This document shows positions 21,673 through 32,625 of a stretch of DNA of 32,625 bases, piece by piece. The DNA comes from an uncultured Puniceicoccaceae bacterium (GTDB taxonomy: Bacteria > Verrucomicrobiota > Verrucomicrobiia > Opitutales > Coraliomargaritaceae). The notes under the pieces are model-generated. The model did not search any database. It was not told the DNA's origin and was given only the letters and a program-made list of their open reading frames with translations. The translations under genes were made by a program, and so were the position numbers. Every line of letters begins with the position of its first letter. Positions within the stretch are counted from its first letter, which is position 1. The stretch is from contig CAJQOS010000041.1 in the NCBI GenBank assembly GCA_905479975.1, positions 1 to 32,625 of the forward strand. The letters are read 5' to 3'.

Positions 21673-22563
21673 TTAATCTTCGTCAATCATGCGGCGCGTC
21701 AAGCCACTGAAGCTATCAATCCGACGATCACGGAAGAACGGCCAAATCCGGCGCATAGCCTCAAGTGCCTTTAAATCGCAATCCGCTAAAAGAATCGCCT
21801 CGGCATCCACGGGCGCACGCTCCATCACCTGCCCATAAAAATCGGAGACGAAGGATTGCCCCCAAAATTCGGTCTCGCCTTCGGTGCCAGTGCGATTGAC
21901 CGCAGCCACATAGCAGCCATTGGCCACTGCATGCCCGCGTTGCACGGTTTCCCATGCGGTGTGCTGTGCTGCGCCAAGTTCCGCCTTCTCTTCGGGCAAC
22001 CAACCAATCGCGGTCGGATAAAACAGAATCTCCGCCCCCGCAAGTGCGGCGAGGCGAGCGGCCTCGGGATACCATTGATCCCAGCAAATCAACACCGCGA
22101 TCTTACCGAAACGCGTGTCCCAGACCTTGTAGCCAAGATCGCCTGGAGTGAAATAGAACTTCTCCTCAAAGCCCGGATCTTGCGGGATGTGCATCTTGCG
22201 ATACTTGCCCAAATACGAGCCGTCGGCATCAATCACAGCCGCTGTGTTGTGATAGACACCCGAAGCGCGACGCTCGAACAGCGAACCGATAATCACAACG
22301 CCCAACTCCCCTGCCACCACTGCCAGCGCATCCGTAGTCGGCCCGGGAACCGGCTCTGCGAGGTCGAACATCTCCGTGTCCTGAGTGCGGCAAAAATAAG
22401 GGGAGGTAAACAGCTCCTGCGTGCAAATGATTTGCGCGCCGCGAGCTGCAGCCTCCCTTATTTTATCAATCGTAGTGGCTAGATTGGCCTCCGCTGATCC
22501 TTGCTCACGAACCTGAATCAGGCCGATACGCACATTGCGATCAGTTGAAGCCGCTGCTGACAT
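21673..22563 (-). CDS. aguB: N-carbamoylputrescine amidase
   Basis: The enzyme hydrolyses N-carbamoylputrescine to putrescine, ammonia and CO2. This 296-residue nitrilase-superfamily protein shows the Glu-Lys-Cys triad: Glu50 (ICTQELFTSPYFC), Lys123 (YRKMHIPQDPGFEEKFYF) and Cys160 (VLICWDQWYPEAARL). The family blocks QDPGFEEKFYFTPGD and FYPTAIGWLPEEK are typical of AguB rather than of other amidases. Length matches. It starts 9 nt after the hisG stop and precedes aguA by 27 nt, so all three are probably one transcript. Agmatine production (SpeA) is not encoded here. Confidence 0.95.
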   Translation of the reverse strand: MSAAASTDRNVRIGLIQVREQGSAEANLATTIDKIREAAARGAQIICTQELFTSPYFCRTQDTEMFDLAEPVPGPTTDALAVVAGELGVVIIGSLFERRASGVYHNTAAVIDADGSYLGKYRKMHIPQDPGFEEKFYFTPGDLGYKVWDTRFGKIAVLICWDQWYPEAARLAALAGAEILFYPTAIGWLPEEKAELGAAQHTAWETVQRGHAVANGCYVAAVNRTGTEGETEFWGQSFVSDFYGQVMERAPVDAEAILLADCDLKALEAMRRIWPFFRDRRIDSFSGLTRRMIDED

Positions 22564-22572
22564 ACGCTGAAA

Positions 22573-23454
22573 TTAATAAACGACTTTATTAAGCGGATAC
22601 TCAATAATCCCCTCAGCGCCGTGCGCCTTCAATGCTGGGATCAGCTCGCGAGACACCTTCTCGTCGATAATCGTATCGATCGCCACCCACGCATCATCCG
22701 CAAGACGGTTGATCGTTGGGTTACGAAGCGCTGGCAGTTCCTCAAGGATCGCATCCAGCTTCACTTTCTCAATGTTAAGCTTTAGGCCTACCTTTGAGTG
22801 TGCTTCGAGCGCTGCCTGCAAGAGCATCGCGATATTTTCGATCTTCTTGCGCTTCTCAGGATTCTCCCAAGCCGCCTTGTTGGCGATCAGCACGGTGTTG
22901 GTGTAAAGCAGTGTGTCCACAATACGCAAGTTGTTCGCACGGAGCGAGTTACCCGTCTCAGTGAGATCCACAATCGCATCAACGAGGTCTGGCACCTTCA
23001 CTTCAGTGGCTCCCCAAGAAAACTCCACGTCGGCATTCACGCCATTGTCCTTCAAATATTGCCCAGTGATATTCACCACTTCAGTGGCGATACGCTTACC
23101 TTCGAGATCTTTGACGGTCTGCACAGTCGAAGCCTCTGGCACGGCAATGATCCACTTCGAGCGGCGGTTCGATGCGCGGCTATAAACGAGGTCACACACT
23201 TCGACGACATCTGACGCGTTCTCACGCACCCAGTCCTGACCTGTCAGGCCGCAATCAAAGTAGCCATGCTCTACATAGCGGCTCACTTCTTGTGCGCGCA
23301 CGAAGCGTCCGTCCAGCTCAGCATCGTCAAAAGACGGGCGATACGAGCGGGAACTCTTTGTGATACCGAAACCAGCTTTTGCAAAAAGCTTGATAGTCGA
23401 ATCTTCAAGACTGCCTTTAGGCAATCCGAGCATGAGTAATGGTGTCTTTTCCAT
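22573..23454 (-). CDS. hisG: ATP phosphoribosyltransferase, long form
   Basis: The enzyme catalyses the first step of histidine synthesis, joining ATP and PRPP. With the ATG at 23454 it has 293 residues ([16 protein letters not shown]...), typical of the long, histidine-inhibited form with a C-terminal ACT-like regulatory domain (about 215-293); this form needs no HisZ. The PRPP-binding region reads [20 protein letters not shown] (about 175-194). A start at 23508 would add 18 odd residues and is rejected. There is no SD sequence. It is the first gene before aguB (9-nt gap); no other his gene is nearby. Confidence 0.95.
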
Positions 23455-23686
23455 AGGGGCAGAGAACTTGATGCAGGATGTCGCAGGCACAAGAAAAATT
23501 TCCCACATTCAGCCCCGACTACTTGAAATATGTATTTGTAAAAAATTATCTTAGCGCTATTTTTACAATTACCCCTAAACTATAAACAATTCTGATGCCG
23601 CTCCCACTTCCACTTAGTTCAGGACAAAAAGCCCCTGCTTTCACTTATACAAGTACTGGAAGACCTATCCCAATTAACCTCTTAAC

Positions 23687-24433
23687 ATGAGCAATCAACC
23701 CAAGCCACTCATCGTCATCGCAGAAGACGACAACGATCTAGCCACTGTCATCGCTACGCATTTGGAACTCGCAAACATGCAAAGCCAAATCTGCAACGAA
23801 GCGGCTCACGTCGCGCGTTACCTGAAAGGCAATTTTGCGAACCTACTGCTATTAGACGTGCACCTCCCCGACTCCACTGGCTTCGCGCTCATGGACGAAT
23901 TACGCAAGGACGAGATCAATATTCCGGTCATTTTCCTGACCGGTGAGAACGCCGAACTTAAAAAAGTAAAAGCTCTGGAAATGGGCGGCGACGACTACAT
24001 CACCAAACCTTTTAGCTTCCCCGAGTTGATCGCTCGCATCAAAGCAGTGCTTCGCCGCGCCGAGACTGCAAATGATGCAAAAATCACTCAAAATGCAACG
24101 ACCTCGGATAAGCCGTTCACCTTCTGCGGAGCCGAAGTCAATCCGCAGCGCTTGGAAGTGCAATTTTCCGATGGTGTGGCAGAAAGTATCGGGCGCAAAG
24201 AACTCGGCATCTTTTCGTATCTCGCCGCAAATCCGAACAGTGTGTTAACGCGCAAGAATTTGATCCACTCAGTCTGGGGCATCCACGCCGACGTGCGCAG
24301 TCGCTCACTCGATCAATACATCGTAAAAATCCGCGACCTCTACAAGCGCCACGACCTTACGCTCGAAGCGTTCAAAACGGTGCACGGAGTCGGCTACATC
24401 TACGACGTCGATACGCCCGAAGAGGACGCTTAA
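23687..24433 (+). CDS. OmpR/PhoB-type response regulator, orphan
   Basis: This is a two-component response regulator of 248 residues. The receiver domain (about 8-125) has the acidic pair EDD (13-15), the phosphoacceptor Asp57 (LLLLDVHLPDS), Thr87 (FLTGEN) and Lys107 (YITKPF). The C-terminal winged helix (about 140-240) has RKELGIFSYLAANPNSVLTR, RSRSLDQYIVKIRDLYKR and TVHGVGYIY, the OmpR/PhoB pattern. No histidine kinase gene is adjacent, so its partner is unknown. The stop overlaps that of the convergent ATPase gene (TTAA, 24430-24433), so the two transcripts must overlap. The start is ATG. Confidence 0.9.
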   Translation: MSNQPKPLIVIAEDDNDLATVIATHLELANMQSQICNEAAHVARYLKGNFANLLLLDVHLPDSTGFALMDELRKDEINIPVIFLTGENAELKKVKALEMGGDDYITKPFSFPELIARIKAVLRRAETANDAKITQNATTSDKPFTFCGAEVNPQRLEVQFSDGVAESIGRKELGIFSYLAANPNSVLTRKNLIHSVWGIHADVRSRSLDQYIVKIRDLYKRHDLTLEAFKTVHGVGYIYDVDTPEEDA

Positions 24434-26142
24434 TCCTCCAGCTCAAGCTTCCACTCGCTCGTGGTGCGAGCCTCGACCTCATCCAAAGTCGTAAAGCCAA
24501 GCAAAGCCTTCTTTAACGCATCATAGCGCAAAGGGCGATACCCGGCACGTCGCGCGGCGACACCCAGCTCATCATCTGCCGCACCACGCGAGATCAGCAC
24601 ACGCATTTCCTCCGTAACCAAGGCCAATTCATGAAACGCAATGCGTCCAAAGTAACCGGTCTGTCGGCAATGCGCACATCCCACCCCATGATAAAGGAAC
24701 GGCGTATGCACTGAGTCGCTATCATAAAAATACCGCTCCAGCACATGCTCCTCAGGCGTATATGCGCGCTTGCAGTTCTCACAGATCCTAGCAGCTAGCC
24801 GCTGAGCCATCACCGCCAAGATCGATGGCGCTACCATATAGGGCTCAATACCCAGTTCCACCAAACGAACGACCGCTTGAATCGCGTTATTCGTATGGAG
24901 AGTCGAAAACACGAGGTGCCCCGTCAAGGCAGCTTCAGTCGCAATCTTAGCAGTCTCAAGATCTCGAATTTCACCGACCAGCATCACATCCGGATCCTGA
25001 CGTAGCAATGAACGCAAAATCGTCGAGAATTTCAGATCAATCTTAGCATTCACTTGCGACTGAATCACACCATCCATCCGCGTCTCGATCGGATCCTCAA
25101 TGGTGCAGATATTCACGTCCGGAGTATTAATCTCATGCAACGCCGCATACAAAGTAGTCGACTTCCCCGAGCCTGTCGGGCCGGTGACAAATACCATGCC
25201 ATTTGGGGCTCGAATCACCTCCTTAAAAGGCTGCAGAATCGTCTGCGACATCAACATCTGATCCAGCGACTTAAAATCCTTCTTCCCGGTGAGCGCTAAA
25301 ATACGCAGCACGATTTTTTCGCCATAAATCGTCGGAATGACTGAGACTCGAAAATTCACGTTCCCCGAACCCAACGGAATCGAAAAGCGACCATCCTGCG
25401 GGAAGCGAGTCTCTGCGATATTAAGATCACTCACGATCTTGATGCGCGAATTCAACGGCGCATGTAGCGCAGAAGCGACACGGAAGACCTGCTGTAACCG
25501 ACCATCCACACGAAAACGTATATTGGTATAGGACTCCAGCGGTTCGATATGGATGTCAGAGGCGCGCTCCTTAATCGCCAAATACAACAGTGCATCACAC
25601 AGACCAATGATCGACTTGGACTCGCCCATCCCCTCCAACTCCTCGGGCTTCAATTGAGCCAAAATCGTCCCCTGGGTGCGCTCCAGTTGGGCGATCAACT
25701 CCTGCACCGATTGATCCGTGCTATAATGCAATTCGATCGCATCGCGCACTTCGATACTCAAACAAAAGACAGGGCTGATATCCTTACCAGTAATCGCAGC
25801 AAGACGACGCACTAACTCCGTATCGTCAGGATTTGGCATCGCCACCGTAAGTGCATCCTCGATCACATAAAGCGGCATCACATTCCCTTTTTTCGCGATC
25901 TCAATCGGCACGCTCGCAATCGCTTCAGTGCTAATAATGGTCGAAAGCGGATCCACATACGCACGCCCGAGGCGATTGCTCCAAAGGTGACATGCCACAT
26001 CCTTTGTAATCGCGCCTGACTCAATCAAAGATTCCAGTAGCTCAAGTGAGTTTTCCTCCCCACTTGCCAGCGCAAGATCATACGCCTCGTTTGAAATCAG
26101 AACGTGGCTAGCCTCCAACTCTTCTCGAATAGTCATGCTCAT
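24430..26142 (-). CDS. GspE/PilB-family secretion or pilus ATPase
   Basis: This is a cytoplasmic hexameric ATPase that drives type IV pilus extension or type II secretion. The 570-residue protein has an N-terminal GspE/MshE-like part (about 20-160) and a core with ASDIHIEPLESYTNIRFRVDG, Walker A GPTGSGKST (about 320), the Asp box TIEDPIE, Walker B DPDVMLVGEIRD (about 386), the His box LVFSTLHTN and a four-Cys zinc site (CENC about 454, CAHC about 489). These are PilB/GspE features; PilT retraction ATPases lack the zinc site. It begins with ATGA overlapping the small upstream gene. No pilin, PilC or secretin gene is in the window, so it is separated from its machine or serves a dispersed one. 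Confidence 0.9.
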   Translation of the reverse strand: MSMTIREELEASHVLISNEAYDLALASGEENSLELLESLIESGAITKDVACHLWSNRLGRAYVDPLSTIISTEAIASVPIEIAKKGNVMPLYVIEDALTVAMPNPDDTELVRRLAAITGKDISPVFCLSIEVRDAIELHYSTDQSVQELIAQLERTQGTILAQLKPEELEGMGESKSIIGLCDALLYLAIKERASDIHIEPLESYTNIRFRVDGRLQQVFRVASALHAPLNSRIKIVSDLNIAETRFPQDGRFSIPLGSGNVNFRVSVIPTIYGEKIVLRILALTGKKDFKSLDQMLMSQTILQPFKEVIRAPNGMVFVTGPTGSGKSTTLYAALHEINTPDVNICTIEDPIETRMDGVIQSQVNAKIDLKFSTILRSLLRQDPDVMLVGEIRDLETAKIATEAALTGHLVFSTLHTNNAIQAVVRLVELGIEPYMVAPSILAVMAQRLAARICENCKRAYTPEEHVLERYFYDSDSVHTPFLYHGVGCAHCRQTGYFGRIAFHELALVTEEMRVLISRGAADDELGVAARRAGYRPLRYDALKKALLGFTTLDEVEARTTSEWKLELED

Positions 26143-26351
26143 TTTTTCGTCCTTTTGCGGTGGCGTTTATCTGCAAACATTTTGCCGATCTCAGTCGCGT
26201 CTAAAAGCTCACGCCCCATCGCAGAGTGCTTACGCTCCAAGCTTACCTCATCCATCATCTCCTTCAGCGAATAGCGAAGCCCTTGAGCCTGACGCTTGCT
26301 CCGCGGAGGTGTGTTACCTGATTCACTCTCTGTTGGTATTGGATCATTCAT
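26139..26351 (-). CDS. small charged protein between CheY-like and PilB-like genes
   Basis: This protein of 70 residues (MNDPIPTESES...) is not recognised. The N-terminal 20 residues look disordered; a helical middle (SLKEMMDEVSLERKHSAMGRE) is followed by ATEIGKMFADKRHRKRTKK, a very basic end. It has no signal peptide or membrane helix. Its stop overlaps the ATPase start (ATGA), and its start lies 11 nt after the receiver gene, so it is firmly within that operon and translationally coupled. The ATG at 26351 is preferred over a start at 26372, which would lie inside the upstream gene. It may be an adaptor for the ATPase (inference). Confidence 0.6.
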   Translation of the reverse strand: MNDPIPTESESGNTPPRSKRQAQGLRYSLKEMMDEVSLERKHSAMGRELLDATEIGKMFADKRHRKRTKK

Positions 26352-26362
26352 TTTAAATAAAA

Positions 26363-26743
26363 TTACTCCCAAATATCCTCAATCAAAGTGTTCAGTTGCT
26401 CCACGATCTCTTCCTTCGGTGTATCTTTACGGAGATAATAAGACGCGCCCAGTTCGACACTCCGCTCCACAGCCTGCCGCGACGCAACAGAAGACGCCAT
26501 CACAACCACCGCGTTTTCATCAAACTCCATGATTTCCTCAAGTGCTTCCATGCCTTCCTTAACTGGCATGTTCACATCCAACAACACCAAGTCAGGCCTT
26601 CGTGATTTATAGAGATCGACCCCTTCTTGCCCATTTTGGGCTTCAGAAAAAGTCTTAAAGCCAATCTGCTTTAAGAGAAGTTTTAAATACATGCGCAGGT
26701 GCGGCTCATCATCGACAATCAATGCAGTATAAGGGCGTTTCAT
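26363..26743 (-). CDS. CheY-like single-domain response regulator
   Basis: This is a receiver domain only, 126 residues. It has DDE (11-13), phosphoacceptor Asp56 (LVLLDVNMPVKEG), Ser in VVMASSVASR and Lys in YYLRKDTPKEE. There is no DNA-binding or output domain, so it must act through a protein partner. It heads an operon with the 70-residue protein (11 nt) and the PilB-like ATPase, which suggests it controls a pilus or secretion motor, as CheY-like PilG/PilH do in other bacteria (inference). The start is ATG. Confidence 0.88.
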   Translation of the reverse strand: MKRPYTALIVDDEPHLRMYLKLLLKQIGFKTFSEAQNGQEGVDLYKSRRPDLVLLDVNMPVKEGMEALEEIMEFDENAVVVMASSVASRQAVERSVELGASYYLRKDTPKEEIVEQLNTLIEDIWE

Positions 26744-26854
26744 GTTGATGAATCTTCTTGCTGATACATCGCATGTCGAGAAGAAACACAGCTATAAACG
26801 CGCCGACTTGACCTCAACCGCCACGCCTCCCAATCTCTGCGCTTTTCTCTCATC

Positions 26855-28363
26855 GTGTTTGCTAAACTCACCCTACTCGACGGCCTGATCGTCTTACTCT
26901 ATTTCGCTGCTGTTCTGGGCATCGGGCTCTACCACGCCCGCCGCAGTAAAGGCTCGGACGACTTCATCTCCGGCAGCCGGCAAATGCCCTGGCTCGCCGT
27001 GCTCGGCTCTATCGTAGCGACTGAAGTGAGCGCAGCGACTTTTCTCGCTACCCCCGGAGTCGGCTTTTCCGAGAATATGAGCTACTTACAGTTTGGCGTA
27101 GGCTCCTTTCTCGCTCGCCTCTTCATCGCCTTTGTCTTTCTCGGCGCTTTCTACGCAGCCAAAAGCCTCACGATCTACGAGTTCCTTGCCAAACGCTTCG
27201 GCAACGGCACGCGTTATACGGCCACCCTGTTTTTCATTGTCACACGTCTGCTTGCCTCCGCCGTGCGCCTGATGATCGCAGCGACAGGACTCAGTCTGAT
27301 TCTGGATGTGCCTTTTGCCGTCTGCCTCGCAATCTTCACCTTAGTCGCCATCATTTATACCGGCGGCGGCGGCATTCGCGGAATCATTTGGACCGATGTC
27401 TTGCAGGCCGTCGTCTTCATCAGTTGTGGCCTCGCACTGATCCTATATGTCGGTCAAAGCATCGGCTGGAGCACGATCACCGAAATCGGCACCGCCAACG
27501 GACGCTTTGAAATCTTCCGCTTCAGTCCGGCAGATAGCGACGGTGGCCTACTGGGGTGGCTAAATGACCCCAAACTCTTCTGGATCGCCGCAGTCTTTGG
27601 CTTCGTCAGCACCACGGCGGCCTTCGGCACCGACCAAGACATGACGCAACGGATGCTCACCTGTAAGGATGTCGGTGCCGCACGGCGCAGTGTCATCCTC
27701 AGTGGTTTTATTTCGATCCCCATCGCTGCGCTTTTTCTCTTTGTTGGTGTTGCGCTGTTCGCCTTTTACCAAGTGCATGCCGATGCCAGCTTGCCGATGA
27801 AACTACTCGAGAGTGGCAGCAGCGAAGTCGCCTCCGACAAGGTCTTCCCATGGTTTATCGGCACCCAGCTCCCCAGCGGACTCCGAGGCCTCCTATTGGT
27901 CGGCGTATTGGCGGCGGCCATGTCGAGCCTCGACTCTACCATGGGCGCGCTTAGCTCGTCTGCACTCGTCGATCTCTACCGCCCGCTGTTAAAGAAACAA
28001 ACCGACGACCAAACTGGGCTGCGCCTATCGCGCATCTTTGTATCGATCTTCGGCGTGGCGCTCGCCCTCACCGCATGGGCACTCAAAGATGCCGAAGGCT
28101 TCCTCTGGCTCACCTTCAAAATCGGCAGCATCACCTACGGGGCAATGCTCGGCGTCTTTCTACTGGGAATCGTCACCAAGCGTGGCTCAGACCGTGGCAA
28201 CTGGATTTCGATGCTCAGCGGCAGCCTGATCTGCGCGGGGCTCTTGGCCTTGATCGAGACCGGAAACCTCGCACTGGGCTGGACTTGGCTAATCGTCATC
28301 GGCACCGCATGGACCTTTGGCCTCGGCTGCTTATGGCACGAAAAAGCCCCGCGATCTGAATGA
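26855..28363 (+). CDS. sodium:solute symporter (SSS family)
   Basis: This is an inner-membrane secondary transporter importing a solute with Na+. The 502-residue protein has about 13 membrane helices. Family marks are DDFISGSRQMPWLAVLGSIV (about 35-54), VATEVSAATFLATPGVGF, IIYTGGGGIRGIIWTDVLQA, and the sodium-site helix AAAMSSLDSTMGALSSSA near residue 353. The substrate cannot be read from the sequence; the GIRGIIWTDVLQ pattern occurs in sugar, sialic acid and amino-acid types. The start is GTG at 26855, chosen because it gives a normal N-terminal helix. It is divergent from the CheY operon by 111 nt. A minus-strand terminator overlaps its last codons. Confidence 0.88.
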   Translation: MFAKLTLLDGLIVLLYFAAVLGIGLYHARRSKGSDDFISGSRQMPWLAVLGSIVATEVSAATFLATPGVGFSENMSYLQFGVGSFLARLFIAFVFLGAFYAAKSLTIYEFLAKRFGNGTRYTATLFFIVTRLLASAVRLMIAATGLSLILDVPFAVCLAIFTLVAIIYTGGGGIRGIIWTDVLQAVVFISCGLALILYVGQSIGWSTITEIGTANGRFEIFRFSPADSDGGLLGWLNDPKLFWIAAVFGFVSTTAAFGTDQDMTQRMLTCKDVGAARRSVILSGFISIPIAALFLFVGVALFAFYQVHADASLPMKLLESGSSEVASDKVFPWFIGTQLPSGLRGLLLVGVLAAAMSSLDSTMGALSSSALVDLYRPLLKKQTDDQTGLRLSRIFVSIFGVALALTAWALKDAEGFLWLTFKIGSITYGAMLGVFLLGIVTKRGSDRGNWISMLSGSLICAGLLALIETGNLALGWTWLIVIGTAWTFGLGCLWHEKAPRSE

Positions 28364-28376
28364 TCAACGGGGCTTT
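28341..28376 (-). terminator. Rho-independent terminator of the Cys-repeat gene
   Basis: The 9-bp stem AAAGCCCCG (28343-28351) / CGGGGCTTT (28368-28376) is followed on the minus strand by TTTTT (28345-28341). It overlaps the last codons of the convergent symporter gene. Confidence 0.82.
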
Positions 28377-28401
28377 GAGAGACTATTAAATCAAGCGAGA
28401 T

Positions 28402-28686
28402 TTATGCGCTGGGGCAGCATGACTTCTTAGCAGCAGGAGCTGCGGCAGCTTTCTTAGTGCATTCAGCTTTTTTCTTTGCGCAATCAGCAGCGGCCTTATC
28501 GCATTTTGCCGCCGACTTATCGCAATCCGCCGCAGGCTTATCACACTTAGCTGCCGACTTTTCGCACTTAGCTGCCGATTTTTCGCACTTAGCTGCATCT
28601 TTCGCGCAGCTAGAATCTGGACAGCCAGCGCTCGCAGTTACAACGCCAGCAATTAACAGAAGAGGAATGAGTAGTAGTTTTTTCAT
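28402..28686 (-). CDS. secreted cysteine-heptad repeat protein
   Basis: This 94-residue protein is not a recognised family. A signal peptide (MKKLLLIPLLLIAGVVTASA) is followed by GCPDSSC; the sequence before that Cys is not a normal lipobox, so signal peptidase I cleavage after residue 20 is likelier than lipidation. Eight cysteines stand exactly seven residues apart (27, 34, 41, 48, 55, 62, 69, 76) in units like KCEKSAA and DCDKSAA, with three more at 22, 90 and 91. In a helix they would line one face. Lys, Asp, Glu and Ala fill the other positions. It could bind metal or form disulphide-linked helices outside the cytoplasm. It has its own terminator and stands alone. Confidence 0.8.
   Translation of the reverse strand: MKKLLLIPLLLIAGVVTASAGCPDSSCAKDAAKCEKSAAKCEKSAAKCDKPAADCDKSAAKCDKAAADCAKKKAECTKKAAAAPAAKKSCCPSA
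28452..28617 (-). repeat. 21-bp tandem repeats in the Cys-repeat gene
   Basis: About eight units of 21 bp code the seven-residue repeat. The units nearest the start are almost identical at DNA level (GCACTTAGCTGCCGA followed by TTTTC on the plus strand), which suggests recent duplication; those nearer the C-terminus have diverged. Confidence 0.85.
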
Positions 28687-28816
28687 AATATTTTTGATTT
28701 TGAGATTTTGTATATGATACAGGTTCTAGGTCTTGTCGAATCTTTCGATAGACTTTCTATTGGAGCCTCCTAACTTCGTCCTATTCCCTGTTTTTCACAT
28801 AAAATTAGAACACCTA

Positions 28817-29800
28817 ATGCTTCCTTGGTTCCAAAATGATCAATTTCCGCTCTATCTCGCTCCCATGGCGCGAGTTACGGACATTGTCTTTCGTCAATTC
28901 TGTAAAGATCAAGGCGCCGATGTCATGGTCACCGAGTTCGTGCAGGCCGATGCCCTCACCCGCGAAGACCCAAAACTTTGGGAAACGGTCGACTTTACCG
29001 AAGAACAACGCCCGATGGGGGTGCAAATCTTTGGCTCCAACCCCGACTCCATGGCCGCCGCCGCACGTCTCCTCGCCGATCGCCTCCAGCCCGACTTTAT
29101 CGACATCAACTTCGGCTGCCCTGCCGATCGTGTCATCTGCATGGATGCCGGCTCGTCCATGCTGCGCAATCCCGCAAAAGTAGGCAAAGTCGTCGGCGCA
29201 GTCGTGCGCGCCGTGCCCGGCACCCCTGTCACCGCAAAAATCCGCACGGGCTGGGACGACGACACCATCGTCGCCCGCGAAGTCGGCCACATCTGCGAAA
29301 GCGAAGGCGCACAAGCACTCGCCATTCATGGTCGCACCAAAGTGCAAGGCTACAGCGGCGAGGCCAACTGGCCACTCATCGCCGAAGTCGCCGATGCGCT
29401 CACCATCCCCGTGATCGGCAATGGTAACATCCGCAGCGCGCACGATGTGATCCGCATCCGCGAACAAACCAACTGCTCAGGCCTGATGATCGGCCGCGCC
29501 GCCCTCGGCTATCCGTGGATTTTTCGCGATATTAAACATTATCTGGAGCACGGCGTCGTGCCCGAACCACCAAGCGTCGCCGAGCGATGGGACACCATCC
29601 TCGACTACACGCGCAAGCTCATGGATCGCCCCTTCCGCCAGCAAAAACACCCCGACCTACGCTGGATGCGCCCCAAGCTGATCGCGCTGACGAAAAGTAT
29701 GAACAGCTCACGCAAAATCCGCGGCGCACTCGGCCACGTCATTCAATTCGAAGACCTCGAACGCGTCGCCGCCGAACACATCGCACTTTTCGACGAATGA
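28817..29800 (+). CDS. dusB: tRNA-dihydrouridine synthase (DusB-like)
   Basis: The enzyme reduces uridines in tRNA to dihydrouridine with FMN and NADPH. The protein has 327 residues from the ATG at 28817. The TIM-barrel marks are [11 protein letters not shown] (12-22), [32 protein letters not shown] with catalytic Cys101, [28 protein letters not shown] and [13 protein letters not shown]. It is DusB-like by these blocks, but the exact tRNA position is not certain. A TTG at 28733 would add 28 residues before the barrel and is rejected. The next gene overlaps by ATGA, so translation is coupled. Confidence 0.92.
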
Positions 29801-30264
29801 AAAAGATCCTCTTCCTCTGCATGGGCAACATCTGCCGATCGCCCGCCGGCCACTGCGTCTTTCAGCATTTAGTCGATGAGGCCGGACTCACCGATCAATT
29901 CGAGATCGAGTCCGCCGGCACCATCGGCTTTCACGTAGGCTCACCGCCCGACAGCCGCATGCAACAATCCATGCGTGCACGCAACATCCCGATCATTGGG
30001 CACTCACGACAACTCAAAGTCGCTGACCTCGAGGACTACGATCTCATTCTAGCAATGGACAACGATAACCTCGTCGATGCCCGCGCTCTCGCCCCCAGCG
30101 GCGAATTGCAGCACAAAGTCCAGCTCTTCTGCGATTACTGCACCGCGCACAACGAAACCGAAGTGCCCGACCCCTACTACGGTGGCGACCGTGGCTTCGA
30201 ACACGTGCTCGACCTGATCGAAGACGGCTGCGCCAACCTCCTCAAAACGTTGAGCGCCCGATAA
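29797..30264 (+). CDS. low-molecular-weight protein tyrosine phosphatase family
   Basis: This is a cytoplasmic phosphatase of 155 residues. The P-loop Cx5R(S) is CMGNICRS with Cys8 and Arg14, and the general-acid Asp is in DPYYGG near residue 125. Family features [15 protein letters not shown] and ILAMDNDNL are present. The ATG overlaps the dusB stop (ATGA). Human LMW-PTP-A has been described as a protein-ribulosamine-5-phosphatase, and in several bacteria such a gene is next to a fructosamine-3-kinase homologue. The kinase remnant 10 nt downstream (30275) suggests that this gene once had such a partner, so a sugar-phosphate or protein-deglycation role is as likely as tyrosine dephosphorylation. 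Confidence 0.9.
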
Positions 30265-30274
30265 TTCGCCTGCG

Positions 30275-30394
30275 ATGGATCCAACACTGGCAAAAGCAAT
30301 CTCCGCGGCGATTCCCCTCGCGACCGACACCCCCTTTAGCGGCACACAGCAAGAGCCGATCAGCGGTGGCGATATCAACGATATCGCTCAATAA
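30275..30394 (+). pseudogene. N-terminal remnant resembling a fructosamine kinase
   Basis: An ATG frame starting 10 nt after the phosphatase stop reads 39 residues and then TAA. It begins MDPTLAKAISAAI and ends EPISGGDINDIAQ. The pattern of an N-terminal helix followed by a Gly-Gly-x-Ile-Asn strand resembles the start of fructosamine/ribulosamine-3-kinases, and the position after an LMW phosphatase is where such kinases are found. The remaining roughly 250 residues are absent: about 115 nt later the EF-P gene begins. It is either a truncated relic or a chance short ORF. Confidence 0.5.
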
Positions 30395-30452
30395 GCACAG
30401 CAAATGATCTTTCAACTACTGGCATAACTCCATTCGATCGACCCCGAATCGC

Positions 30453-30481
30453 TTGACAGCCCCGCAAAGCACTGGAAGATC
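30453..30481 (+). promoter_or_regulatory. possible sigma-70 promoter of efp
   Basis: A perfect -35 TTGACA (30453-30458) is followed after 17 nt by a weak -10, AAGATC. Transcription would begin about 20 nt before the efp ATG. Confidence 0.35.
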
Positions 30482-30509
30482 AACTCTTTTTTCAACACCC
30501 ACAAAATAT

Positions 30510-31067
30510 ATGGCATCACCAACAGACGTTCGTAAGGGCAAAGTCCTCAACTATCAAGGCACTCCGCACCTCGTGCTCGACGTGCAGCACCGCACCCAAG
30601 GTCGCCAAGCCGGCTTCATGCAAGTCACCATGCGCAACTTGAATTCTGGTTCCAGCACCAACACCAAGATCCGCACCACCGACTCCGTCGAAATCATGCA
30701 CACCGACATGGTGAAGCTTGAATACAGCTACGTCGATGGCGACGGCTACCACTTCATGGATCCCGAAACCTTCGAAGACATCATCCTCGATGCCGATCTC
30801 GTCGAAGACTCCAAGGACTTCCTCGTCGAAACACAGGCTTACAGCATCTTACACGTCAACGACAAGCCGATCCAGATCGAGCTCCCCGCGTCCATCGAGA
30901 TGAAAGTCACCGAATCCGCCGAAGGCATCAAAGGCGACACCGCCAGCAACGTGCAAAAGCCCGCCACACTCGAAACTGGTTTGGTCGTGCAAGTGCCACT
31001 CTTCATTAAAGCTGGCGACGTACTCAAGATCAGCACCTCCGAAAAGTCCTACATGGGCCGCGCATAA
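30510..31067 (+). CDS. efp: elongation factor P (EF-P/YeiP-like) with Arg at the tip
   Basis: EF-P relieves ribosomes stalled at consecutive prolines. The 185-residue protein has three beta-barrel domains: KGKVLNYQGTPHLVLDVQH (9-27), YSYVDGDGYHFMDPETFE, and the C-terminal signature KPATLETGLVVQVPLFIKAG followed by GDVLKI. The loop that reaches the peptidyl-transferase centre reads RTQGRQAGF, with Arg32 where the E. coli protein has modified Lys34 (KPGKGQAF). KGxVLNYxG also resembles the YeiP/EfpL branch. No modification enzyme (EarP, EpmAB) is in the window. The ATG at 30510 gives the normal N-terminus; a TTG at 30453 is inside the likely promoter. It ends at a strong terminator. Confidence 0.93.
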   Translation: MASPTDVRKGKVLNYQGTPHLVLDVQHRTQGRQAGFMQVTMRNLNSGSSTNTKIRTTDSVEIMHTDMVKLEYSYVDGDGYHFMDPETFEDIILDADLVEDSKDFLVETQAYSILHVNDKPIQIELPASIEMKVTESAEGIKGDTASNVQKPATLETGLVVQVPLFIKAGDVLKISTSEKSYMGRA

Positions 31068-31094
31068 GCGTTGCAACAAGACACCCTTTTTAAA

Positions 31095-31131
31095 CAAAAC
31101 GGCGAACACTTTACGTATTCGCCGTTTTTTT
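31095..31131. terminator. bidirectional terminator between efp and pyrC
   Basis: The 9-bp stem AACGGCGAA (31098-31106) / TTCGCCGTT (31118-31126) is followed by T7 (31125-31131) on the plus strand, which ends efp. On the minus strand a TTTT-G-TTT run follows, so it may also end pyrC. Confidence 0.9.
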
Positions 31132-31153
31132 GTGCCAGCTAGTTTGAAGTGAA

Positions 31154-31171
31154 ACAGACATTTCTGTCTGT
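31154..31171. repeat. 18-bp palindrome, second copy of the 7152 motif
   Basis: ACAGACA-TTTC-TGTCTGT differs from the copy at 7152 only in one loop base. It lies between convergent genes efp and pyrC, where no operator is expected. Confidence 0.7.
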
Positions 31172-31196
31172 CTCTTTGCATTTCTATAGGCAATGA

Positions 31197-31214
31197 ACAG
31201 GCAGAAATGCCTGT
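31197..31214. repeat. 18-bp palindrome, variant copy
   Basis: ACAGGCA-GAAA-TGCCTGT has the same architecture as the previous palindrome, with one compensated pair change (A-T to G-C) and the loop in reverse complement. It lies 25 nt further on. Confidence 0.65.
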
Positions 31215-31226
31215 GCCACTTCATAT

Positions 31227-32225
31227 TTAAACAATCGAAGTCACCGCCCATGGAATCGTTTCGCCTGCGCGATACGGCACCACATCACCATAGCGATCCG
31301 GCACGACCATGCCCGTCTTCTCGAGCTTCACCCGCTTCGACAGCGGCGTGAAATTGTGGATGCGTTGCGCATTGCCACTCACAAATGCCTGCAAGTTATC
31401 CAAGGCATCGTGTTGCTCAAATAGCTCAACCAGCGTCGGCAAACAAACCGGAGCCGTAAACAAACCCGCCGCACAACCGCAGCACTCTTTCTTAGAGACC
31501 GGATGCGGCGCAGAATCACTGCCGAACATCAATTTCGGGTGCGCCTGCAAGGCCGCAGCCAGCAAGGCTTCGCGATCCTCGGGACGCTTCGCAATCGGCT
31601 TACAGAACAGATGCGGCTGCAACATTCCGCCCGCCACATCGTTGAGTGTAATGATCAAGTGATGCAGCGTCACCGTCGCATGTAGATTCTCATAGCGATC
31701 CAGCATCTCGACCGCGTCGCGGGTCGTGATGTGCTCCATTGTGATCTTCAGCTTCGGATACTTCTGCGCCAAATACTCGTAACTCGCCAAAAACTCCTTT
31801 TCGCGATCCATCACAAAGCCATGCGTCTCACCATGGATCATGAGCGGGATGCCCATTTCTTCCATCAACTTAAAAGTGCTCTCGACCGCGCCGAGTTCTT
31901 TAACGCCCGCCTCACTATTCGTCGTCGCACCAGCCGGATACAGCTTAATGCCAAAGATGTGCTCACGCGCCGCAGCCAGCTCAGCCTCGCTGTAATTGCG
32001 GAAGAACAGCATCATCAGCGGATCAAACACCGCGTCGCCCTTCGCCGCATTGATCTGATCGCGATACACTTGCAAGCGCTCCAGATTATCAACCGGTGGC
32101 ACGAGGTTCGGCATAATGATCGCACCAGAGAAGTGCTCCGCCGTGAGTGGCGTCACACGCTCCATCATTGCCCCCTCGCGGAGGTGTAAGTGCATATCAA
32201 GAGGTGAATCAAAAACAAATTCCAT
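31227..32225 (-). CDS. pyrC: dihydroorotase, class II
   Basis: The enzyme closes N-carbamoyl-aspartate to dihydroorotate in pyrimidine synthesis. The 332-residue protein shows the zinc ligands: His12 and His14 (DMHLHLREG), the carboxylated Lys94 ([17 protein letters not shown]), His131 (MIHGETH), His165 (MEHITT) and Asp237 (GSDSAPH). Its length and the [11 protein letters not shown] block are those of the E. coli PyrC class. A cluster [12 protein letters not shown] follows the active-site Asp, also seen in relatives. The start is ATG ([10 protein letters not shown]). No other pyr gene is nearby. Confidence 0.95.
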
Positions 32226-32625
32226 CCCACAACGCTACGCCGCCCCACCCTCGGCTGCAAAGCATAAAGCAGCGAAATATTGCGAAGCCGTCGACCATCA
32301 GCGAAGATAAGCCGTGAGAATCCCCGAGCATGCCGCTTTAGGGAAAAATCGAAGGGGTCAAACGCAAAATGCAAAGATCCCTACGGGCAGACTCACGACG
32401 CCAGCACTGAATGGAGGCCGAGACGTCCGCCGCGCCCCTGATTCGGCCACAGCAAAAAGAGGGGCGTGTCATCATGCTTACAATTAGCTAGAGCTTGTCC
32501 CACCAGGGGGCGTTTCTGACGGCGGTGTTTTTTGAAAAAACATACACCCCGTTCATTTTGACATTACCTCGTTGTTCCTGACGCGATTCTACGCCTCAGC
32601 CGCGATTTTAGGGTAAAATGCGTAG
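32226..32625. other. 400-nt end region without a recognised gene
   Basis: No convincing coding frame, RNA gene or repeat was found. A near-perfect AT palindrome TGTTTTTTGAAAAAACA lies at 32525-32541. The first part must hold the pyrC promoter, but no clear -10/-35 pair is visible. Confidence 0.5.

Follow-up and report, generated by a model that had tools for sequence, protein, structure and literature searches.

A heptad cysteine array in one member of an unnamed, probably exported family of cysteine- and lysine-rich proteins in Coraliomargaritaceae

The window, a stretch of 32,625 nucleotides from an uncultured Puniceicoccaceae bacterium, carries a gene for a Cys-rich protein which, judged from its sequence, belongs to an unnamed family of Cys/Lys-rich proteins that are probably exported. 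The eight cysteines that follow each other at intervals of exactly seven residues in this protein are not common to the family. The reading we tentatively favour is that of an exported, metallothionein-like thiol/metal buffer.

The open reading frame of the first-pass annotation was recovered exactly in strand and length, with cysteines at positions 22, 27, 34, 41, 48, 55, 62, 69, 76, 90 and 91 of the 94 residues (Table 1), giving spacings of 5, seven times 7, 14 and 1. The annotated run of eight cysteines at spacing 7 was likewise reproduced; when 11 cysteines were scattered at random over the 74 residues of the mature chain, none of 200,000 trials produced eight of them in a heptad run. This mature chain consists of 15% Cys and 23% Lys, and contains no F, W, Y, L, I, V or M. 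Comparison with the orthologue of a congener (G010) gave a dS of 1.09 and a dN of 0.13 over 78 codons (ratio 0.12; the mature part alone gives a dS of 2.06, near saturation), and cysteine is retained in 8 of 9 Cys columns. A ratio of about 0.12 argues that the frame is a real gene, translated and under purifying selection. For eight other pairs of members the ratios range from 0 to 0.92, the highest two (0.92 and 0.56) resting on few changes. The N-terminus, MKKLLLIP, opens what by eye is a signal peptide (MKK, a hydrophobic core and an ASA cleavage site). As this signal-like N-terminus is common to the relatives, the secretion first proposed is borne out as probable export.

Table 1. Features of the gene and its surroundings (positions within the window)
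Feature	Position	Strand	Evidence
Gene for a 94-aa Cys-rich protein, probably exported	28402..28686, stop codon included	(-)	ORF and dN/dS
Signal peptide, residues 1-20, probable cleavage ASA/GC	28627..28686	(-)	Read from sequence; relatives' N-termini similar
Array of eight units of 7 residues (27-82), each with one Cys; consensus C-x-K-x-A-A-(K/D/E)	28441..28608	(-)	
C-terminal CC pair, residues 90-91	28414..28419	(-)	Sequence; CC in last ten residues of 25 of 35 members
GGGAATA element, candidate for the -35 box of an alternative-sigma promoter	28782..28788	(-)	Family upstreams
Inverted repeat in leader, core TCGAA-AGA-TTCGA	28730..28753	(-)	Upstream alignment, by eye
Neighbour, sodium:solute symporter	26855..28363	(+)	Pfam SSF 2.9e-41
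Divergent neighbour, tRNA-dihydrouridine synthase (dus)	28817..29800	(+)	Pfam Dus 4.9e-78

A search with the window protein returned matches in 11 of 57 genomes, its own counted. With profiles, which include their training sequences and give some partial matches, the family was found in 36 of the 43 genomes of the window's taxonomic family (ten members), in 47 of 372 genomes at the level of the order, 36 of these in the same taxonomic family (24 members), and in 21 of 387 at the level of the phylum (19 members), many of the last being weak matches that are not counted as members. The two sets of 36 genomes differ, G008 appearing only with the ten-member and G029 only with the 24-member profile. 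Completeness is at least 90% in 20 of the 43 family genomes, and G013, rated 100% complete, has no match to the family. Counts over 35 members, as used below, omit partial matches (e.g. G008, G028), second copies per genome, sequences with unread letters, and G026, G029, G036 and G062, which were not extracted. The first-pass statement that the protein matches no known family agrees with these searches: Pfam and NCBIfam gave no credible match for the window protein (best E 0.021 and 0.66) or over 24 members (best E 0.021 and 0.01), no metallothionein family was among the matches for either, and a PDB sequence search had no match for the window protein or the family profile. A literature search of limited depth found no description of the family.

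Directly after the signal peptide, 31 of 35 members carry CGxC(G/A), in the form CGxCG in 23 and with a preceding His in 19. The window protein has GCPDSSC at that place, without CGxCG and without the His, and G010 has GNADSSC; the orthology of the window protein consequently rests on position and profile, as its gene adjoins dus and the profile matches along its length. In 27 mature chains Cys makes up 11-21% and Lys 11-24%, with 0-6 hydrophobic residues in 26 of them and 11 in one; the number of cysteines is even in 15 and odd in 12. The gene adjoins dus in 15 of the 21 family loci (the window and L064-L083), lies beside a YmdB gene in genus g3 (Pfam 3e-93, L069), and is found between a putative valS and an amidohydrolase gene in L084, L087 and L100 of family f21 (read by eye). 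Further afield, the phylum match in L117 is a long protein resembling a membrane-fusion protein, the likeness of a Tardiphaga MAG protein (L014) to the window protein lies mainly in the signal peptide (by eye), and the short Cys-rich proteins of two Verrucomicrobiaceae MAGs (L015, L016) are of doubtful homology.

Two further groups of exported proteins were observed alongside this family. A second Cys-rich family, with CGDGCGDKKDK-like repeats, is encoded at L095:6058-6447, L097:5774-6169, L098:5124-5519 and L099:5836-6258; the last three genes lie near a putative metH, and in L099 the next gene encodes a peroxiredoxin (AhpC-TSA 1.8e-23). The sequence KWWKFWG(E/G)E ends two unrelated-looking low-complexity exported proteins, one at L130:3868-4359, beside metal-efflux-type genes of the window's own genome, and one in L111 (C-terminus).

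TRF detects the repeat of the window gene as a 21-bp array at 28474-28596 (score 106). Units 2 and 3 are 95% identical and every other pair of units 43-81%, which points to one recent duplication inside an older array; the recent repeat growth suggested at first pass thus holds for units 2 and 3, the remaining pairs being older. The number of heptads is 8 in the window protein and 6 in G010, where two heptads (14 residues) are absent, and repeat number thus varies between two species of one genus. Heptad Cys runs of at least 5 occur in 5 of 35 members from three genera (window 8, G010 6, G023 6, G020 6, G032 5). Because the units differ among members (C-x-K-S-A-A-K, CSKDKAE, CGDKKAD), these arrays could stem from separate expansions or from strong divergence, both being possible. 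Apart from G010, the same-genus orthologues at the matching chromosomal position have CC-containing 14-residue repeats or irregular spacing, and no heptad.

Across all 35 members, Cys lags of 7, 14 and 21 seem enriched (z 3.2, 5.0 and 7.1). In the 22 representatives that remain when the five long heptad arrays and near-duplicates are taken out, lags 7 and 14 lie near chance (z 0.9 and 0.7), and the heptad was rejected as a family-wide rule. Lags 8, 20 and 21 remain raised in this set (z 2.5, 4.9 and 3.0), perhaps through CC-containing repeats. The same representatives are enriched in CC (z 5.5) and, beyond residue 28, depleted in lag 2 (CxC; z -5.4, 2 counted vs 24.6 expected) and lag 3 (z -4.4). 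With lag 7 at chance, CC enriched and CxC depleted, the heptad is, on the sequences compared, only one solution within a family that mainly conserves Cys density, and a variable feature of few members. The orthologues without Cys periodicity contradict the heptad as a general principle, and with it the helical rod of the first-pass annotation, but leave the reading as an exported thiol-rich protein standing.

AlphaFold2 without an alignment predicts two helices, at residues 25-46 and 52-82 of the full-length protein (mean pLDDT 67.1) and at 25-46 and 52-81 of the mature chain (mean pLDDT 72.7), with a pTM of 0.46-0.48 over both models and a pLDDT of 78-85 per ten-residue block over residues 31-80. 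The break between the helices falls at the proline-containing fourth unit, and confidence in this single-sequence prediction is low. Ala- and Lys-rich sequences are readily modelled as helix, which makes the prediction a weak one. Foldseek returned nothing at E below 0.001 (best E 3.4). Heptad position a is Cys, and position d is S, K, D, P or A; since d is not hydrophobic, the window protein is not a classical coiled coil. With about 10.5 Å between them, cysteines i and i+7 of a single helix are too far apart to share an ion, so that a metal site would need a second helix or chain.

The role as an exported, metallothionein-like buffer is suggested by the few hydrophobic residues, the lack of Cys parity, the failure to find DsbB or VKOR (see below) and the DUF3347 relatives beside RND pumps. 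Metal binding, as already proposed in the first-pass annotation, thus remains the best guess, though not in the form of a regular helical rod. The chain would be exported by Sec, and its mature part would stay largely unfolded or loosely helical until metal arrives. Soft metal ions, for example Cu(I), Ag(I), Zn(II) or Cd(II), could then be held by its thiolates, between cysteines of two helical arms or of two chains. Free periplasmic metal would be lowered in this way beside a Cus-like efflux system encoded in the same genome, whose RND, CusB-like and OEP genes form a set with two HMBD stretches. Capacity might be gained and lost as short Cys units grow and vanish, of seven residues here and of other lengths in relatives.

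The DUF3347 relatives are three distant profile matches (G362 9.5e-7, G297 9.2e-5, G338 6.1e-4), in which (H/R)CGxCG after the signal is followed by DUF3347 (46.6, 21.6 and 31.8 bits, respectively; cut-off 25.5). Each gene adjoins an RND pump gene, all of these falling in one cluster (confirmed by Pfam ACR_tran in G362), and lies beside a membrane-fusion gene; in G297, where this was tested, the latter is of the CusB type and has two HMBD stretches. The link of the family to these proteins rests on the signal peptide and (H/R)CGxCG, the latter reading RCGGCG in L102. Of the 43 family genomes, 12 have a DUF3347 (PF11827) match above the cut-off, and its distribution does not follow that of the Cys gene. 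A rhodanese (2.9e-8) or DUF2059 (8.9e-13) domain was found in further distant proteins with HCGxCG, and the N-terminal motif is hence not tied to one function. A literature search for DUF3347 together with copper found nothing. At L089:5382-6616, tandem DUF3347 proteins are encoded behind an RND pump gene, and only the second (L089:6053-6616) begins HCGTCG.

A conserved metal-gene neighbourhood was not found for the family (21 loci). No metal gene was recognised next to the window gene or among the named neighbours of 20 family loci, mostly housekeeping genes, in a survey of 218 ORFs across the 21 loci, 27 of them unclustered and unannotated, for which most clusters were named by eye. Eight phylum loci were also read by eye, and in two of these (L123, L127) a ferritin gene lies 1.5-3.3 kb away.

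Four other readings were weighed against the metal buffer. A helical rod, as a natural coiled coil whose Cys stripe would form stacked metal-thiolate layers in the manner of designed three-stranded Cys coiled coils, draws on the five members, from three genera, with heptad runs of 5-8 and on the block-wise pLDDT of the two predicted helices over residues 31-80. It must contend with a non-hydrophobic position d, the proline in one unit, the near-chance lag 7 in the 22 other representatives, single-sequence models of low confidence and the empty Foldseek search, and is in our judgement improbable. Much the same doubt applies to its elaboration as a tunable exported metal ladder, where paired or oligomeric heptad helices would gain one thiolate layer with each 21-bp unit; if true, metal capacity would be set by repeat number, and the protein would correspond in nature to the designed Cys coiled coils. 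Alternatively, exported chains could be zipped via a Cys ladder into a disulphide-cross-linked protein that stiffens the cell envelope. Such cross-linking has been proposed for cysteine-rich outer-membrane proteins of chlamydiae. A probably exported, Cys/Lys-rich, repeat-grown chain almost without hydrophobic residues would be suited to this, and register-tolerant cross-linking of repeats would explain the free variation in spacing. However, neither DsbB (PF02600; controls positive in 6 of 14) nor VKOR (PF07884; controls positive in 3 of 14) was found in any of the 43 family genomes, which, together with the odd Cys number in 12 of 27 members, also weakens the disulphide-zipped bundle proposed at first pass. 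As G013 has no match, the protein is moreover not an obligatory envelope part, and a structural role of this kind is unlikely. That the protein is a copper-binding RiPP precursor akin to bufferins or methanobactin, with cysteines modified by an MNIO enzyme, is scarcely credible. Bufferins and other MNIO-modified copper peptides are small, exported and Cys-containing, and the window protein shares these traits; it differs in that no MNIO enzyme (PF05114; controls positive in 2 of 14) was found in any of the 43 family genomes, and the reading was rejected on this ground.

The upstream regions bear on a sacrificial thiol or sulphur buffer, in which exported cysteines would be consumed by oxidants or reactive sulphur, or would serve as a sulphur store, under envelope-stress sigma control. 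GGAATA, which looks like an ECF-type -35 box, is present in 20 of the 29 family upstreams (mean 2.0 and maximum 9 after shuffling) and upstream of 10 of 197 other conserved genes in these loci, five of the ten being dus genes, and it spans different gene contexts (beside dus, YmdB and valS-like genes). A distant, exported HCGTCG protein (L112:1441-1977, distant family) contains the rhodanese domain (2.9e-8) mentioned above, a peroxiredoxin lies 1.4-5.1 kb off in 6 of 21 family loci (AhpC-TSA 4.7e-29 for L064, the rest by clustering), and in L099 one directly adjoins the second Cys-rich family. Conversely, the promoter class is read from likeness in 29 related upstreams, a single genus contributing 11 of them, genera g5 and g8 showed no such element, and no peroxiredoxin of this kind lies within 22001-32625 of the window. 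On balance we regard this buffer, too, as unlikely. The inverted repeat in the leader is kept in most aligned members of the genus, some with altered loop bases (by eye); Rfam gave no match at the gathering score and one chance-level 5.8S rRNA match below it.

CxC and CxxC motifs are usual in metallothioneins. These proteins are small, Cys-rich and poor in hydrophobic and aromatic residues (in part after PMC7558416). The window protein resembles the bacterial metallothioneins SmtA and MymT in being small, very Cys-rich and almost without hydrophobic or aromatic residues. In contrast, its family is probably exported, repeat-built and without a Pfam match, and CxC is depleted in the family and absent in the window protein. 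Csp1 (PMC7558416) is a periplasmic protein with a Tat signal and a pre-folded four-helix bundle whose core contains Cu(I). The window protein is presumably periplasmic as well, with many cysteines that might sit on helices, but it has a Sec-like signal with no twin arginine, low complexity and no hydrophobic core. Its single-sequence models show two helices (mean pLDDT 67-73) with no Foldseek match at E below 0.001. The DUF3347 proteins beside RND pumps (L089:6053-6616, L101, L102) share the signal peptide followed by (H/R)CGxCG, and differ in containing the DUF3347 domain, at a weak to moderate profile score. Designed Cys coiled coils combine heptad Cys placement with a hydrophobic a/d core. 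In designed three-stranded coiled coils with Cys layers, the cysteines are set in the helical repeat (PMC10299331). Position d of the window protein is, unlike theirs, polar, charged, Pro or Ala.

In combination, these observations expose an unnamed, fast-changing and probably exported Cys-rich family in genomes in which neither DsbB nor VKOR was detected, and where free thiols outside the cytoplasm may consequently be normal. If metal-binding, the family would be a repeat-tuned, exported counterpart of the metallothioneins, and its members with 5, 6 and 8 heptads would constitute a natural series in which capacity could be related to repeat number.
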